Notes under the pieces: model-generated
Seen by the model: only the letters and a program-made list of their open reading frames with translations
What the model was told of the DNA's origin: nothing
Database searches by the model: none
NCBI GenBank assembly: GCA_016933275.1
Contig: JAFGBI010000092.1
Coordinates: forward strand, 1 to 64,000
DNA: 64,000 nt
Direction: 5' to 3'
Source of the DNA: Polyangiaceae bacterium
GTDB lineage: Bacteria; Myxococcota_A; Polyangia; Polyangiales; Polyangiaceae
Shown here: piece by piece, positions 49,018 to 58,305 of the stretch
How positions within the stretch are numbered: the stretch's first letter is position 1
Layout: every line of letters starts with the position of its first letter
Position numbers and translations under genes: made by a program

Positions 49018-50487
49018 TCAGCCCTTCTCGAGAGTGAGCCTGGTGACCTTCCAGATCGGGGGTGCGTTGACGAGCTCGACCGCGTAGACGCGGGTCCCTT
49101 CGGGCCCCGTTGTCGTGACCCGGGCCCTGGCAGCGCTGTTGGTTATGGTGAGTAGCTCGGCCGTGGTCAGCACCTTGCCCGCCACCTTGCTGCGCCGGGC
49201 GTCGCAGGACGCCTTGCCGTTGCTCTCGCACTGGCGCATCTGCTTCTCGATCTCCTGTGCGGGCTCGGTGTCCGCCAGCTCGGCGGCCCGGTCGTATTCG
49301 TGACTCGCCAGACGTTGCACAAGCTCGATCGCTGCGTCCTTCGGCGTACTGGCGAGCTCCACCGTACCAACTTCACGGGGCTTCTTCGACTCTGGTGGGT
49401 GAGCATTGCAGGCAAACTTGGCCGCGCCCCACATAACGAGCGTCGAGAGCGCCACTACACCCAACATGCCGAGTGTCTGCACGTCCGGCGCCGGCACGTC
49501 GGATTCTTTCCGGGCGATCGGAGCCTTCCGTGTCCGGGTGGGTGCAGCGACGCTCGCCGCCGGGCGGATCTCTCGTTCCCGCCTGTCGATCTTCCTCACC
49601 GCAACGGCTGGCGATGCGGGACGATGGTCTCGCTCCGGGTGGGGAGCCGTGTGTCGCACGGCGCCGGTCCGAAGGCTGACCCGCACCGCGTCGCCACCGT
49701 CGACCGCCACCGCAAGCCAGTTTCTGGCCCCGAAGGCCACCCCCGCCACCTGGCGGTCCGAGAAGACGACGCTCGCGACCTCCTTCTTGGTGTTACGGGC
49801 GAAGACGAGCACCCGATCAGCGGCGGCGCGCACGGCCACCAAGGCGCCATCTGCGGAACCGACCGGACAGTCGGGCTTCGGACGGTCCTGGTCGGTGCCC
49901 TCGAGCTCCACCAGGAGACCAGGAGGCGACTCATCGCTGGGGACAACGTGCACTGCCGAGCCGACGCACACGGCCCAACCGCCACCGGCGAGGGCACATA
50001 CCGCAGAAACGGCCCCCGGCAGATCGACGACGGCCACCTCCTCCAGGTCGGACTCGTCGAAGATGCGAAGTTTCGCGTCGCGGCAACCCACCCCAATTCG
50101 ATCACCCGCCGCAGCCCAGGCCACGGCCCGAGCACCTTCGACAGCTATGCTCCGAGGTTCGTCCCCAGGGTCGATGATCTTGACGCCGTCATTCGTCAGC
50201 ACGGCGGCCACGCCATCGCGGTCGACGGCCACGGACTTGGGCGTGCCCTCCACGTCGACCTCGTCGCTGCGCTGCCCCGATTCCCCGTCCCACCAGGTGA
50301 GGAGGCCGACGTCGTCGAGCGTGATCACCTCCTCGTCGGTCACCCCGATACCGAGGATCTTCCCCCCACACTCGGTCTTCCAAAGGGGCTGCTCGTCGTC
50401 TCCAGTGTTGACGAGCAAGGTGGCCCCATCAGCGGTGACGAGGAAGGACTCTCCCTCGTCGCAAGCGAGCAAGTTCGTGCGGCGCAT
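49018..50487 (-). CDS. Beta-propeller-like protein with C-terminal transmembrane segment and tail domain
   Basis: WD-like repeating blades in the N-terminal 270 aa, then TLGMLGVVALSTLVMWGAAKFAC. Confidence 0.55.
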   Translation of the reverse strand: MRRTNLLACDEGESFLVTADGATLLVNTGDDEQPLWKTECGGKILGIGVTDEEVITLDDVGLLTWWDGESGQRSDEVDVEGTPKSVAVDRDGVAAVLTNDGVKIIDPGDEPRSIAVEGARAVAWAAAGDRIGVGCRDAKLRIFDESDLEEVAVVDLPGAVSAVCALAGGGWAVCVGSAVHVVPSDESPPGLLVELEGTDQDRPKPDCPVGSADGALVAVRAAADRVLVFARNTKKEVASVVFSDRQVAGVAFGARNWLAVAVDGGDAVRVSLRTGAVRHTAPHPERDHRPASPAVAVRKIDRREREIRPAASVAAPTRTRKAPIARKESDVPAPDVQTLGMLGVVALSTLVMWGAAKFACNAHPPESKKPREVGTVELASTPKDAAIELVQRLASHEYDRAAELADTEPAQEIEKQMRQCESNGKASCDARRSKVAGKVLTTAELLTITNSAARARVTTTGPEGTRVYAVELVNAPPIWKVTRLTLEKG

Positions 50488-50952: not shown

Positions 50953-51657
50953 GTGGCAGAGGCCCCTCCAGAGCCTACCCGCGCGGCTCCGGTCGTGTCC
51001 GACCGGACGCGGGCCGGCGCGCTCCGCTCCCTTGCGGCGCGCCGCTCGGCGTCACACCTGTGGGTCCGCGTTGCCCGGTGGGTCGTTCCGATGATTGGCG
51101 TAGGCTTTGGGGCGCTGATGTTGGTCGTGCGATTCGGCACGGGCGCCACGAATCTGGATGAGCTACTGGGGCGCGCCATCGGGGCCATCTGTTGGGTTGG
51201 CGGGGGACTGGCCTTGCTCGGGCTCGCTCGCGCCGACGATGCGGCGGATGACCGCGACGGGATCACCGCGCTCGTCCACCTACGTGGACACCAGCGCAGT
51301 GCGCTCGCTCGTGCCCGCCGGACGACCGCGGGATGGGTCGTCATGGGGACGATCTGTCCCACCGCGATCGGGCTCGCCGTCCTCGAGGTGGCCCTCGCGC
51401 GGTCCCTGAGTGACCTCTGGGTCGCCGTGGTGCTGGGCACGGGGGCGGCCGCATTCACGGCGTTCGCGAGCGTGATCCTCGCGTTGGTGGCTCGTGCGGC
51501 GGCAGCGCTGAACCCCCACCGACCACGCCTGATGGCGGCGGCGCTCCTGCTGATCCCCGAACTCGTTCGCACCGCCGGGCTCACGATACCCAGTGTCCCG
51601 TCGGTGCTCGCCGCGGTACTGGAGCAAACGTTGAAGCTTGGAGCGGGAGCCGCGTGA
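50953..51657 (+). CDS. Polytopic membrane protein, first gene of an ABC-2-like operon
   Basis: Multiple hydrophobic segments; stop overlaps the start of the next gene (GTGA). Confidence 0.65.
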   Translation: MAEAPPEPTRAAPVVSDRTRAGALRSLAARRSASHLWVRVARWVVPMIGVGFGALMLVVRFGTGATNLDELLGRAIGAICWVGGGLALLGLARADDAADDRDGITALVHLRGHQRSALARARRTTAGWVVMGTICPTAIGLAVLEVALARSLSDLWVAVVLGTGAAAFTAFASVILALVARAAAALNPHRPRLMAAALLLIPELVRTAGLTIPSVPSVLAAVLEQTLKLGAGAA

Positions 51658-52757
51658 GTCAACTCGTGATCCGGGGATTGAGCGCGCCTGGTCTGACGCT
51701 CGCCGAGCTCACCCTCGGGCCGGGTCTCTATCCAATCCTCTCCCGAGCCGAGCCGGGGAGCGCCTTGGTCGCCGCCATTGGTGGGCAGCTTCGTGGAAGA
51801 TCCGGCACGGTCACCGTGGGGGGGGCGGACCCCCAACGAAGCCCCCGGACCCGTGCTCGCATCGCCTTGCTCCTGGCGGCGGAGGCGCTGATGCCAGCTC
51901 GCACGGTAGCCACCTCCATCACCGAAGCGCTGGGACCGCGGGAAGCGCCGAACGCGCTCGCCGCGGTCGGCCTCGAGACTTGGGCCCGGCGAGATCCCCG
52001 CCGCCTCTCCCCAGCGGAGTGTCGGAGCGTGGCGCTCGCCGTGGCTCTGGCGACCAGCCAGCCTCTCGTCGCCGCCTTGTACGAACCCCTTGCGGCGACC
52101 CCCGGCATGAGCCGCGATCTGGTGATCGACCGGCTGCGCGAGCTGGCGGCCAATGGCACCACCGTCATACCCGTGACGAGCAGCGTCCGCGACGTGGAGC
52201 GCATCGGCGGGGATCCCCACGTGCTCGGGAGAGGGATCGCCCTTCGGATCGGGACCCCCTTCGGCGCACAACACGGCGGCCGCGATGCGGAGTTCGTGCT
52301 CGAGGCAAGCTCGGTCCGGAAGCTTGCCGCGGGGCTCCTCGACCTGCCTGCGATCACCGGGCTTACCTTCGACGAGGTCCTGGCACCCACCCAAGTACGA
52401 GTGCGCTCGGTCGATGCGCGCGCCGGAAGCCTGGCGATCCTGCAGGCTGCCTCCGAACGAGGAGTGTCGATCACGACGTGGCGCCTCGAGCCTCCCACTC
52501 TGGACGTGATGCAGGCGACGGCAGCGAGCGCGGCCCGCGCGGCCGTCGAGCGACGACCGGCAGCCGCCTCGCCCGATCCGTGGACGGTCGCCATGCCGTT
52601 CGGGCTCGCGCCGCCACCCCCCCCTCCGCCACCAGGAGGTGCCGACCCGCCCTTCGACGGACCCGAAGCCACGCCTCCTTCGACCGAGGAGGTTCGGACA
52701 GAATTGGACCCTGCCGCCCCATCTGGGAAAACTCCGGCGTTTCGTTCCGAGGACTGA
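51654..52757 (+). CDS. Degenerate ABC-transporter ATPase-like protein (pseudo-ATPase)
   Basis: Overall ABC-2 NBD layout (RGRSGTVTVGGADPQRSPRTRARIALLL, LSPAECRSVALAVALATSQPLVAALYEPLA, RELAANGTTVIPVTSS) without intact Walker A/B. Confidence 0.75.
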   Translation: MSQLVIRGLSAPGLTLAELTLGPGLYPILSRAEPGSALVAAIGGQLRGRSGTVTVGGADPQRSPRTRARIALLLAAEALMPARTVATSITEALGPREAPNALAAVGLETWARRDPRRLSPAECRSVALAVALATSQPLVAALYEPLAATPGMSRDLVIDRLRELAANGTTVIPVTSSVRDVERIGGDPHVLGRGIALRIGTPFGAQHGGRDAEFVLEASSVRKLAAGLLDLPAITGLTFDEVLAPTQVRVRSVDARAGSLAILQAASERGVSITTWRLEPPTLDVMQATAASAARAAVERRPAAASPDPWTVAMPFGLAPPPPPPPPGGADPPFDGPEATPPSTEEVRTELDPAAPSGKTPAFRSED

Positions 52758-53446
52758 TGCTCGATCCGACTCTTCGCGGCATTGACCTCTCCTGGCGCCG
52801 TTTGACCTTGGGGCGGATGCCGCTCGCGCCGGGGATCGCTCTCATCTTCGTAGCGTTCGTCGCCTGGCTGGAGCGTCAGCAGAGCGGGGCGATCGCCGCG
52901 GACCGAGCGCTCACGGGCGCGACGATGGGCGTGGCCTTGCCGCTGATGGTAGTGGCGCTCCTCCACCGCCTGGCACCGGGTGAGCGACTCGACCAGATGC
53001 TCCTTCCGCTGTCGCGCCATGGGGTCAACCGTCGAGGGGCCGTGCTTGGATACTTGGGAGCACTGTCGGTGGTGTCGGGTGGATGCGGTATGATCCTTGC
53101 TTGGGTGGCCGTCCTTGTCGCCCGCGGGATTGCGGACCCCATGCTCGGTAGTGATCTGGCGACGAGTGCGTGGATCGGAGCCTTGGGCGGGATTTCCTAT
53201 GCATGGCTGCTTGGGCTCGGTGCTTGCGTCGGGGCTCGCGGGGGTGGTCGCTGGACCCTCTTGCTGCTCGATGCGGGCCTGGGGATGGGAACGGGAACGT
53301 TGGCGCTCCCTTGGCCTCGCGCCCACCTCAGAAACCTGCTCGGCGCAGAAGGACCTCTGGTACTCGCGCAATGGACGGCGGTGCCGTGGCTCTTGGCCCT
53401 GACGTCCATCGCGATGCTCGGAGTGTTTTTCCGCGTTCAGCGTTGA
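52757..53446 (+). CDS. Polytopic membrane protein, third gene of the same operon
   Basis: Hydrophobic segments; start overlaps the previous stop (TGATG). Confidence 0.65.
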   Translation: MLDPTLRGIDLSWRRLTLGRMPLAPGIALIFVAFVAWLERQQSGAIAADRALTGATMGVALPLMVVALLHRLAPGERLDQMLLPLSRHGVNRRGAVLGYLGALSVVSGGCGMILAWVAVLVARGIADPMLGSDLATSAWIGALGGISYAWLLGLGACVGARGGGRWTLLLLDAGLGMGTGTLALPWPRAHLRNLLGAEGPLVLAQWTAVPWLLALTSIAMLGVFFRVQR

Positions 53447-53494: not shown

Positions 53495-54202
53495 GTGAGG
53501 GGTGTCCTGTTCCAGTTCGAGGACCTCCAGGCGTTGGCCTGCAAGCTGGAGGAGAACGGTGGTGAGCAGGAGCTCGAGCTGCCAGGGCTCACGGGTGTTC
53601 GCGAGGGGGAGTGGCTGCTCGTGACCATCACCGTTGGCGAGGACAACACGTCCGTCGCCGCCTGTGCGGTGGACCGAGGTGATGGATTGCGAATCGCATT
53701 CGCGAATCGGGACTGGGAACGGCTACTCGAGTTTGCCCACGTGGGAGGCCCCCCCAGCGCGAAGCCGCCGGACCCGGTAATTCCCATATCGCAGCTCGAA
53801 CCGCCCGCAGCCCACGTGCTGATCGTCGATGATGATGACGGGGTGCGGGCGGTGGTGGCTTCCGTGTTGAGCAACGCCGGATACCTTGCGTCGGGGGTGG
53901 GCAGCGCGGAAGAAGCGTTCGATCGGCTCCGAACCGAGCAGGTGGACCTCGTGGTTCTGGATTGGTGCCTGCCGGGAGTGGATGGGGTCGCCTTCTGCCG
54001 TCGTCTACGCGACGACCCGCGGCTCGGCGATATTCCGGTGTTGCTGATGTCGTCGCACTGTTCCCCCTGCGAAGTGTCAGCGGCGCTCGCGGCCGGTGCC
54101 GACGACTTCGTGGGCAAGCCCTTCCGCGCCCCAGAGCTGGGGGCACGGCTCCTCGGACTCCTCCGGCGCTCTCAGCTCCCCGTGTCGGTGGGACGCGGCT
54201 AG
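53495..54202 (+). CDS. Response regulator with N-terminal PilZ-like domain
   Basis: VLIVDDDDGVRAVVASVL, LVVLDWCLPGVDG, FVGKPF; N-terminal beta-rich domain. Confidence 0.75.
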   Translation: MRGVLFQFEDLQALACKLEENGGEQELELPGLTGVREGEWLLVTITVGEDNTSVAACAVDRGDGLRIAFANRDWERLLEFAHVGGPPSAKPPDPVIPISQLEPPAAHVLIVDDDDGVRAVVASVLSNAGYLASGVGSAEEAFDRLRTEQVDLVVLDWCLPGVDGVAFCRRLRDDPRLGDIPVLLMSSHCSPCEVSAALAAGADDFVGKPFRAPELGARLLGLLRRSQLPVSVGRG

Positions 54203-54592: not shown

Positions 54593-56170
54593 TCACTGCT
54601 CGCGAAACGCCTCGGCTGGACGTAGACGCGCGGCGTAGAGAGCTGGCCACACCGTGGCCAGCAGGCAAACCAGGAGAGAGAATACGCCCACGAGGGCAAA
54701 CTCCGTGGCGTGCATCTGGACCGGTAGTCGAGAGATGAAATACACCTTGGGGTCCAGGGGGAACCCGTAGACTAGGAGCACCCGGCAAGAAAGGTAGCCG
54801 AGCCCCAGCCCGGCCACTGTCCCCACCAGACCGATGAGGCCGCCTTGGTAGAGGAACGCCCGAAGCAGCTTGAGGTCCGATGCACCCATCGCCTTGAGCA
54901 CCGCGATCTCCCGCTTCTTCTCCAACACCAGCATGATCAAGGTGGCGATCACGGTGAACGCAGCGAGGACGATGATGAGCGCGAGCACCATACTCATCAC
55001 GATCTGTTGGATCCGGAGGGCGGTGAAGAGACCGTGGTTGAGCTCCTCCCAGTCCATGGTGTTGTAGAGCCCGTTGGAGAGCCGCTCGTCGACCGCCGCC
55101 TTGATGACTCGTGCGCGATCGATGTCGGAGACCTTCATCTCGACCCCGGTGACGGTATCGCCACCGTCCAGGTATTTCTGGGCTTCGAAGAGGTCGGTGT
55201 AGATGAGCTTCGAGTCGTACTGGTCGAACCCGGCGTCAAACGCCGCGACCACGCGGAAGTGCCGGGCAACCGGGGCGCGAATCGCCCCTCTGGTGTAGGT
55301 GAAGCCAATCGTGGGGGAGGTTACCTGGAGGCAATCGCCGATCGAAAGGTCGAGCTTCTCGAGGAGTGCCTTGCCCACAATCACCCCGGAGAGCGGCCTG
55401 TCGCGAGCGTTGTCGGCGCAGGGGTCCGGGTCGATGTCTGGCCCGAGTTTCATCGTGGCGATGTCCTCATCGAGGAACCGGCTCGTCCAGCCACCCTCGG
55501 GGACGGTCGAGCCAGGCGGCAATTCGCCAGGAACGGATCCCGCCGAGCTGGCGATGCGCGCGCCGGCCGCCGCGCCCGCCGCGGCCATCGCGTCACTGGC
55601 GACGCGCTCCTGGATCACATCGAGGAGAGGCTTGGCGGAGGAGGGCGGAGGCGTCGTTGGAGGTGGATCGAAATGGCCACCGGTTCGATGGTCCGGCGGT
55701 CGAGCATCGGGGAGGCGCAGCAAATCGATGCATTGTTGGGGGTTCCCGCCGCTGGCGCGACACTGCGGGGGTTCGCTGATCTGCCGTGGCAAATCCAAAA
55801 CGGAGGCCATCCGCTCCGGGTCGACACCCTTCAGCAGCACCCCCGTCGCGGTCCGGTCACCATGCGTCACCATCATCGGGCTGATCACGAACGGAGCGAC
55901 CCCAACGACACCGGGTATCGTCGCCATTTCCCGCATGACGTCACGATACTCGCTGAAGTCACTCGAGTACTTCAGCACGAGGACGTGTGCGTTCACCCCC
56001 AGCACCTTGTCGCGGAACTCGGAGCGGAATCCGCCCGTAACACTCATCACCGTGGTGAGCGCCGCCACCCCCACGGTGACGCCGATGATCGCGAACATGG
56101 TCCCGACCGAGATGAAAGCCCGCTTCTTCGATCGGAGGTACCGAATGGCAAGCGAGAGCGGGAATTCCAT
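54593..56170 (-). CDS. LolC/LolE-type lipoprotein-releasing ABC transporter permease
   Basis: MEFPLSLAIRYLRSKKRAFISVGTMFAIIGVTVGVAALTTVMSVTGGFRSEFRDKVLGVNAHV; FtsX-like C-terminus AVLKAMGASDLKLLRAFLYQGGLIGLVGT. Confidence 0.9.
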   Translation of the reverse strand: MEFPLSLAIRYLRSKKRAFISVGTMFAIIGVTVGVAALTTVMSVTGGFRSEFRDKVLGVNAHVLVLKYSSDFSEYRDVMREMATIPGVVGVAPFVISPMMVTHGDRTATGVLLKGVDPERMASVLDLPRQISEPPQCRASGGNPQQCIDLLRLPDARPPDHRTGGHFDPPPTTPPPSSAKPLLDVIQERVASDAMAAAGAAAGARIASSAGSVPGELPPGSTVPEGGWTSRFLDEDIATMKLGPDIDPDPCADNARDRPLSGVIVGKALLEKLDLSIGDCLQVTSPTIGFTYTRGAIRAPVARHFRVVAAFDAGFDQYDSKLIYTDLFEAQKYLDGGDTVTGVEMKVSDIDRARVIKAAVDERLSNGLYNTMDWEELNHGLFTALRIQQIVMSMVLALIIVLAAFTVIATLIMLVLEKKREIAVLKAMGASDLKLLRAFLYQGGLIGLVGTVAGLGLGYLSCRVLLVYGFPLDPKVYFISRLPVQMHATEFALVGVFSLLVCLLATVWPALYAARLRPAEAFREQ

Positions 56171-56643
56171 TGGGGGTAGGGGCAACGGCCGACTCGCACC
56201 TCAAGATGCGCACGACGTGGCTCGGCACAGTGTCGCAGGCATCCCATGCGCGCAAGAGGATCCAGGGGTCGCCCCGCGCCGGTAGCAGGCCGCGCGATCG
56301 CCCACGCTGCACCCTCCCTCGGTAATGCTCCCGGTGCCATTCCGCGATTCGCGACCGGTTCCGAGTAGACTCGACCGCAGGACAGGATATACATCCGTTC
56401 AGCACGATGGAAGGGATCGAGGAGCGGGGGCTCGGTGGACGTGGGGTTTCGCCCCGCCAGTCAGCCGAAACCACGGGGGTCGTTTGCCGACGTGTGCTCG
56501 GCGTTTTATTTTCGATTCCGCTTGGATGAAGGTGGGGATGATGGAGACTCAGGAACACGCCGCACGCGGTCCCGCGAGGGGACCGGGCAACCACGATGGG
56601 GGCCGCGGCATTCGTCCTGGGCACACCCGCGCGCCGGTGCGAG

Positions 56644-58305
56644 ATGGCTGAAGAGCCGCACGACCAACCCACGGAGCCCGAGCTCCGCACCGAAGCGACG
56701 ACCACTCGCGACACGGGTGGGCTCAAGATCGTGACAATCACCGCCCCACCCGGCTCCATCCCCGATGCGGAGCCGACCGCCAGTGGGCGGCGCTTGCGCG
56801 ATCCGTACCTCGGCGCGCTCGTCGACGGACGGTACCGGCTCGAGTCCGTTCTCGGCGAGGGTGGTATGGGCATCGTCTACCGCTGCCGCCACACCATCAT
56901 CGACAAGAAGGTCGCGATGAAGGTGCTGCGCGCCGATATGGCGCGGGACCAGGAGGTAACCGAGCGTTTTCTCAACGAGGCGAAGGCAGCGTCGGCGGTC
57001 GGGAACCCCCACATCATCGACATCAGCGATTTCGGCCGCTTCCCCGACGGATCGACTTACTTCGTGATGGAGTACCTCGATGGGATCCCGTTGTCGGACG
57101 TGATCAACACGGGAGGTCCGGTCCCGGTGTCGCGGATCGTGCACATCGGGCGCCAGCTCGCAGAAGGCCTGACCGCCGCTCACAGCGCCGGGATCATCCA
57201 CCGAGACCTGAAGCCGGACAACGTGTTCCTGGTGCGGCGAGGCAAGGAGAAGGACTTCGTCAAGATCCTCGATTTCGGGATCGCCAAGGTGTCGAGCCAT
57301 GGCAGCAAGCTGACCCGGGCAGGCACCGTTTTCGGGACGCCTCACTACATGTCCCCAGAGCAAGCGGCTGGCGCTTCGGTCGATCATCGTGGTGACATCT
57401 ACTCACTGGGGGTGATCCTCTATGAGCTGACGAGTGGGCGGCTACCCTTCGATGCCGACAACTTCATGGGTATCCTCACCCAGCACATGTACAAGGCGCC
57501 GGTCCCGCTACGTGCGCTCGAGCCGGCCCCCCCGGACGTGCCCCCTGGGCTCGAGGCCGTGATCCTCAAGTGCCTCTCGAAGCGCCCGGAGCAGCGGTAC
57601 CAGGCGATGGAGCACCTGCTGGACGACCTCGGCCGGATCGCTGACGGCGGCATCCCTGACGCGGTTGGCGAGATGATGAGCCGAAGCGGTGGATTCCGCG
57701 TGCCGCCAGGCTACTTCGACGGGGGGGCTCCGGAGGCGCTCTCTGCCACCCAAGGCGTGCCTCAGGCTTCTCTGGGGAGCCATTGGCCGTTCTACGCCGG
57801 TGTCGCGGGGGTGCTCTTCGCGGTGGGACTGGTAGCGACGATCCTCGTCATGGGGACAACCGGCGCGGCGTCGTCTTCCTCGCCCGCCTTGGTGCGAAGC
57901 ACCGTACCGCCAGGCACGATCCGCGCAGCGCCCTCCGCGCCGAACCCCGCCGCGACCACGCCGGCCGTGGGACGCCAAGTGATCGTGGCCACCGAACCGG
58001 GGGACGCCGAGGTGTGGATCGGCGACCGGCGCCTCGGCTCGGCCCCCGTCGCCATCACGGTTCGTCCGGGCACTCCCGTTGCGCTCACCGTGCGAGCCAA
58101 GGGTTTCGAGGACTCCACCCACGTCGTGGACGACACGCGGGACGCTCAACGGATCCGACTGACACCCCTCCCTGTGTCGACCGGACAGCCACGCAACCCC
58201 AGCAGACCGGTGATGCCCGCGGCAAATCCAACGACAAAACCCCGCCCCCGGACAGACGCGGGGACGATCGGCGGTGGCGATATCGTAAATCCATGGGAAG
58301 AATAG
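56644..58305 (+). CDS. Serine/threonine protein kinase with transmembrane and PEGA domains
   Basis: LGEGGMGIVYRCRH, VAMKVLR, IIHRDLKPDNVFL, ILDFGIAKVS, GTPHYMSPEQ; C-term PEGA-like EPGDAEVWIGDRRLGSAPVAITV. Confidence 0.92.
   Translation: MAEEPHDQPTEPELRTEATTTRDTGGLKIVTITAPPGSIPDAEPTASGRRLRDPYLGALVDGRYRLESVLGEGGMGIVYRCRHTIIDKKVAMKVLRADMARDQEVTERFLNEAKAASAVGNPHIIDISDFGRFPDGSTYFVMEYLDGIPLSDVINTGGPVPVSRIVHIGRQLAEGLTAAHSAGIIHRDLKPDNVFLVRRGKEKDFVKILDFGIAKVSSHGSKLTRAGTVFGTPHYMSPEQAAGASVDHRGDIYSLGVILYELTSGRLPFDADNFMGILTQHMYKAPVPLRALEPAPPDVPPGLEAVILKCLSKRPEQRYQAMEHLLDDLGRIADGGIPDAVGEMMSRSGGFRVPPGYFDGGAPEALSATQGVPQASLGSHWPFYAGVAGVLFAVGLVATILVMGTTGAASSSSPALVRSTVPPGTIRAAPSAPNPAATTPAVGRQVIVATEPGDAEVWIGDRRLGSAPVAITVRPGTPVALTVRAKGFEDSTHVVDDTRDAQRIRLTPLPVSTGQPRNPSRPVMPAANPTTKPRPRTDAGTIGGGDIVNPWEE

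Follow-up and report, generated by a model that had tools for sequence, protein, structure and literature searches.

A family-wide conserved ABC-2-type operon with a predicted pseudo-ATPase in the Polyangiaceae

We describe a three-gene operon in which a protein with the fold of an ABC nucleotide-binding domain (NBD), devoid of the catalytic motifs, is encoded between two polytopic membrane proteins. The three genes (A, B, and C) specify a family-wide conserved, unannotated complex, and B is a pseudoenzyme under selection: Catalytic residues have been lost in all orthologs, and the gene is conserved. Binding of ATP is what defines an ABC protein, and the degenerate ABC proteins known to us keep at least one working site. 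The explanation we favor, with a probability of roughly 0.6, is that the complex began as an ABC-2 transporter powered by ATP, lost its ATPase a single time, and has persisted as a scaffold or signal transmitter that works independently of ATP. If this is true, an operon without a single working site, derived from one that is intact in sister families, would have become fixed in dozens of genera. It would also offer a direct test of how an ABC membrane domain can act when ATP plays no part, and of which residues take the place of the nucleotide at the dimer interface.

Three overlapping genes in the window

The operon lies on the forward strand of the window (the whole stretch of 64,000 nt that was analyzed). 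An earlier reading, made from the sequence alone, had described it; on re-reading, its coordinates, overlaps, and motif letters were all exact, and the flanking genes A and C are polytopic, as it had said. No second NBD is present in the operon in the window, and an active partner is not encoded there. The features are as follows.

50953–51657, forward: gene A, polytopic membrane protein of 234 aa with four strong hydrophobic segments
51654–51657, forward: 4-nt overlap (GTGA) of the stop of A and the start of B; the start codon of B is GTG
51654–52757, forward: gene B, pseudo-ATPase of 367 aa, ABC NBD fold without catalytic motifs, no strong hydrophobic segments
51741–51767, forward: former Walker A (P-loop), B residues 30–38, SRAEPGSAL, no Lys; family consensus G[TA]P..DGT.AL
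52005–52025, forward: former signature, B residues 118–124, LSPAECR; family consensus LSxxExR
52068–52088, forward: former Walker B, B residues 139–145, VAALYEP; Asp gone, Glu-Pro retained
52164–52184, forward: former H-switch, B residues 171–177, VIPVTSS; His missing in 80 of 80 orthologs
52287–52490, forward: C-terminal alpha/beta domain of B, residues ∼212–279, as in the ABC-2 NBDs NosF and DrrA; AlphaFold E212–218 to E273–279 with pLDDT >90; TIGR01188 match to residue 284
52566–52754, forward: Pro-rich tail of B, residues ∼305–367, variable, pLDDT 50–65, missing from many orthologs
52757, forward: 1-nt overlap (TGATG) of the end of B and the start of C; the start codon of C is ATG
52757–53446, forward: gene C, polytopic membrane protein of 229 aa, predicted ABC-2-like half, five strong hydrophobic segments

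B is an ABC domain stripped of its catalytic motifs

B is a true homolog of ABC nucleotide-binding domains. It scores above the cut-off of Pfam ABC_tran (E = 1.8e-6; 29 bits, cut-off 25), a model matched by 12 of the 14 members of the B family tested. An NCBIfam match (TIGR01188/DrrA) spans residues 89–284 and reaches the C-terminal domain of DrrA-type ATPases, and a sequence search of the PDB returned EcfA2 at 2e-6. Compared as profiles, the B family and the intact ABC-2 NBD family described below (B′) matched with a probability of 99.95% (E = 3.6e-38). The AlphaFold model of B from the window, built from a 70-row alignment, has a pLDDT of 87.3 (>95 in the core) and still forms an intact strand–loop–helix at the old P-loop. 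ABC ATPases were among its best Foldseek matches in the PDB; NosF aligned with TM scores of 0.60/0.71 over 312 columns, and both domains were covered by NosF and by ABCA transporters. The Pfam score, the fold match, and the profile comparison rule out a chance resemblance to ABC proteins and bear out the homology that the sequence-only reading had proposed by eye. The Pro-rich C-terminal tail noted there is real in the window copy but is not a feature of the family, as many orthologs are without it.

We surveyed the motifs by aligning 80 B proteins and five intact NBDs. None of the 76 orthologs with a residue at the Walker A Lys column carries Lys there, GxxxxGK[ST] occurs nowhere in any of the 80 proteins, and the H-loop His is likewise found in none of the 80. 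The column aligned with the Q-loop never holds Gln, in a part of the alignment that is less sure. The loss of the Walker A Lys from all orthologs, which had been proposed as a check on the pseudo-ATPase, was thus found throughout, and no intact Walker A turned up. Walker B has kept its Glu-Pro pair (Glu in 75 of 80, Pro in 77 of 80), with the Asp retained in 10 of 79. B from the window is without the Walker A Lys, the Walker B Asp, the Q-loop Gln, and the H-loop His.

New residues occupy the old site. In the P-loop, Asp is present in 60 of 76 orthologs and Gly in 61 of 76, with Thr in place of Lys in 38 of 76; in the signature region, the LSxxExR pattern is carried by Glu in 63 of 80 and Arg in 74 of 80. 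The window copy is among the more divergent members, and its P-loop, which reads EPGS, is without the D-G-T motif. We infer from these alignments that the complex would not hydrolyze ATP, and it probably works without ATP as fuel. A limited search of open-access papers found no precedent for a family in which every ABC site is dead.

The trio is conserved across the host family

Relatives were searched with B and then with a profile of C; a scan of the genome contigs returned generic ABC proteins only. The trio was found in 86 of the 108 genomes of the host family (50 of the 61 high-quality genomes) and in 42 of its 48 genera, with one copy per genome save for one weak second match. Among 379 genomes drawn across the phylum, matches were confined to the host family apart from one weak relative outside it (G038, of a different family) and a short fragment. 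In ∼90 loci extracted for comparison, the order A, B, C was constant, the A–B junction was 60 nt or less in 69 of 74, and the B–C junction was 60 nt or less in 69 of 78. In two genomes (loci L040 and L105), B and C form a single reading frame, a natural fusion.

Selection on the trio is mostly purifying. Among pairs >75% identical in C, dN/dS (Nei–Gojobori) ranged from 0.09 to 0.49 and was mostly 0.1–0.4, for A, B, and C alike; distant pairs and GC bias push up the medians over all pairs examined (0.48, 0.47, and 0.35 for A, B, and C, respectively). The earlier suggestion that the operon is maintained rather than decayed therefore holds: The trio is family-wide, A and C are conserved together with B in the same order and at close spacing, and dN/dS is low. 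Of the three outcomes named beforehand as refuting that reading (orthologs with intact Walker motifs, no NBD homology, and flanking genes not conserved with B), none was seen.

A and C resemble the membrane halves of ABC-2 transporters

Neither A nor C of the window matches a Pfam family, and profile searches of the PDB with either returned nothing meaningful. The A profile matched that of A′, the first permease half of the intact operons described below, with a probability of 97.8% (E = 7.7e-13), against 37% for the other half, C′. Scores were 39%–91% against each of eight single A′ proteins and <0.3% against 11 control permeases, the LolE-like protein of the window among them. One A family member also matched Pfam ABC2_membrane_3 (2e-6). 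Judged by these profile comparisons, A is a relative of A′.

For C, comparison as a single sequence showed no significant similarity to anything, and likeness to C′ appears at the profile-to-profile level only (53%, E = 1.4e-4, vs. 3.5% for A′). C′ itself matches ABC2_membrane_2 above the cut-off. The fused protein of L040, modeled from a 26-row alignment (pLDDT 88.2), provided a structural view: The C part has a six-helix ABC-2 topology with a short helix between helices two and three, at the place of the ABC-2 coupling helix, and another short helix before the last helix. The fusion model aligned end to end with ABCG2 (∼650 columns; TM score 0.56 both ways), and C is therefore predicted to be an ABC-2 membrane half; the rmsd of ∼11 Å indicates that domain placement differs.

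The sequence-only reading had taken the operon for a new architecture. This did not survive, since the profiles, the fusion model, and the ABCG2 match place A, B, and C on the ABC-2 (type V) plan. The novelty is that plan with the ATPase dead across a whole family; the plan itself is already known. The trio shares a common NBD fold with a C-terminal domain, the ABC-2 membrane topology, and the permease–NBD–permease order with exporters such as NosDFY, DrrAB, Wzm-Wzt, and ABCG/ABCA; unlike them, its family is without the Walker A Lys and the H-loop His throughout. No NosD-like protein was noticed among the clustered neighbors of 85 loci, part of the clusters having been scanned with Pfam.

An intact sister operon and the order of motif loss

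A permease–NBD–permease operon is found in other families of the order, and its motifs (GPNGSGKT or GPNGAGKS, and DEP) are intact in 23 of 23 loci (L051, L055, L056, and L184–L203). A′ was found in families f3, f4, f5, f6, f7, and f9, with three weak matches only in the host family; the pseudo-trio and the intact operon thus have opposite, mutually exclusive distributions. Both operons have the same gene order, and profile comparison supports colinear homology of A with A′, B with B′, and, most weakly, C with C′. They differ in the motifs of the NBD and in that the intact operon is often followed by a conserved gene of ∼212 aa that was not seen with the trio. This 212- to 214-aa protein ends the intact operon at L051:8540–9178, L055:4516–5160, and L056:4465–5103, and the L051 copy is without a Pfam match.

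In an NBD tree, all tested pseudo-B proteins fell into one clade with a support of 100 on a long branch. An AU test rejected neither their grouping with intact B′ (p-AU = 0.33) nor one alternative (p = 0.19). On the sequence comparisons, the trio likely descends from the intact operon, a conclusion that draws on A, gene order, and distribution more than on the B tree because that tree does not resolve the sister group.

The order of loss was read from a tree of A and C, which contains none of the motif columns. One clade of 23 rows retains the Walker B acid, as does L050; this requires three changes against 20.5 in shuffles, and the main loss is a single one, on the branch leading to all other rows. 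Because the Walker A Lys is absent from either side of this tree, its loss probably came first, as one event that preceded the diversification of the host family. B proteins of two loci (L048 and L050) combine an intact-looking Walker B and D-loop (LLDEP..D..P) with no Walker A Lys and are candidate loss intermediates.

A working model and its alternatives

We propose that the trio forms one membrane complex on the ABC-2 plan, with A and C as two different membrane halves and B as a cytoplasmic ABC domain, probably in two copies (AC:B2). Its ancestor would be the ATP-driven permease–ATPase–permease operon that sister families have kept intact. In the ancestor of the host family, B would have lost the Walker A Lys, the H-loop His, and the signature glycines, and the Walker B acid would have followed later, in a large subclade. 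The complex would nevertheless have been retained: Purifying selection acts on a near-universal single-copy gene set whose old ATP site carries newly fixed residues. B may hold the helices of A and C through coupling-helix contacts and, with a cytoplasmic partner or ligand bound in place of ATP, may change or fix the state of these helices. More speculatively, the P-loop Asp and the signature Glu and Arg, which in an ABC sandwich would face each other across the B dimer interface, could hold or regulate the dimer without ATP. The most likely function we infer is that of an ATP-independent scaffold or signal transmitter. To the fuller statement, that the whole ABC-2 complex abandoned ATP at the base of the family and is now an ATP-independent, partner- or ligand-gated machine belonging to the core gene set of the host family, we would give about even chances.

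Two known systems offer partial parallels. FtsEX is an ABC complex that signals rather than transports (PMC11627006); FtsEX, LolCDE, and MacB, however, use ATP and have periplasmic domains, whereas A and C are short and without such domains. EcpK of Myxococcus xanthus, an inactive pseudokinase with a P-loop, has been proposed to act as a scaffold for a partner in the membrane (PMC12004946), although it is tyrosine-kinase-like rather than ABC and its partners are unrelated.

Transport without ATP is an unlikely alternative, in which A and C would form a gated pore, a lipid scramblase, or a secondary transporter with B as a structural clamp or gate. The ABC-2 membrane fold kept by A and C would suit such a role, as would the strongly conserved residues of C, including a PR(A/G)H..LLGG region in the family alignments. 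The neighboring genes, however, give no clue to a substrate, and we know of no ABC-2 membrane domain that transports without a working ATPase.

The chief rival to our model, although quite unlikely, is that B is the dead half of a heterodimer, whose active NBD is encoded elsewhere and drives A and C by hydrolysis at one site. The precedent is Pdr5, whose degenerate site shows the same set of losses as B (Lys to Cys, Glu to Asn, His to Tyr, signature LNVEQ); with one site equally ruined, the transporter is active (PMC7756269). A two-NBD ancestor is also possible, since intact operons of family f6 (L200–L203) carry two different NBD genes beside two permeases, in the order NBDa–A′–NBDb–C′. But in Pdr5, TAP, ABCG5/G8, and TM287/288 one site stays active, in the protein itself or in its partner, and the trio operon encodes no active partner. 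An NBD with Walker A and B lies beside the trio in only three of ∼85 loci, and in the host genome each of the nine best ABC-2-type NBDs belongs to a cluster of its own that includes a polytopic neighbor. Moreover, the signature of B is ruined too, which would leave each composite site with at most one canonical half.

That B still binds or hydrolyzes a nucleotide, through the P-loop D-G-T and the Walker B Glu, seems very improbable. The strong conservation of the new residues at the old site and the retained Glu would fit a repurposed pocket; yet the Lys, most of the Walker B Asp, and the aligned Q-loop Gln and His are all lost together. Replacement of the phosphate-binding Lys by Thr or aliphatic residues with an acid nearby disfavors phosphate, and the window copy has not even the D-G-T. 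Finally, the window B strays even from its own family consensus, but decay to a pseudogene, whether local or general, has a negligible chance, contradicted by the family-wide conservation, low dN/dS, intact frames, and gene order.

Gene neighborhood of the trio

The trio is the sole constant element among the neighborhoods compared, with no steady neighbor to indicate a pathway. In one clade the order is TlpA, a WD40-like gene (opposite strand), A-B-C, a response regulator, a LolE-like gene (opposite strand), and a kinase; in other clades, the trio adjoins an unannotated protein of ∼180 aa, DUF362, SmpB-like, and other genes. The response regulator, LolE-like, WD40-like, DUF362, and SmpB neighbors were rejected as stable partners, as they differ between clades. 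The upstream thioredoxin gene had pointed to a role in cytochrome c maturation (CcmAB with TlpA/CcmG), which was also set aside: No CcmB model is matched by A or C, and a thioredoxin gene is near the trio in nine loci only.

Several neighbors merit description. The WD40-like, beta-propeller-type protein (49018–50487, reverse) has a conserved C-terminal domain and is divergent to the trio in 19 loci. The response regulator (53495–54202, forward), directly downstream from the trio in one clade, has its receiver domain at residues 108–218, preceded by a conserved N-terminal region of ∼100 aa with no clear Pfam match. The LolC/E-like permease (54593–56185, reverse; TIGR02212, 290 bits, below the cut-off of 362) is syntenic in ∼20 orthologous loci. 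It has no adjoining LolD gene; the neighbor on the LolD side is the response regulator, on the other strand. The gene at 56596–58305 encodes a Ser/Thr kinase, not lysS. In 23 loci of another clade, a conserved protein of ∼180–190 aa lies just downstream from C (for example, L041:9134–9706, L042:5636–6205, and L161:7331–7873, the last without a Pfam match), with a pattern that looks YceI-like by eye.
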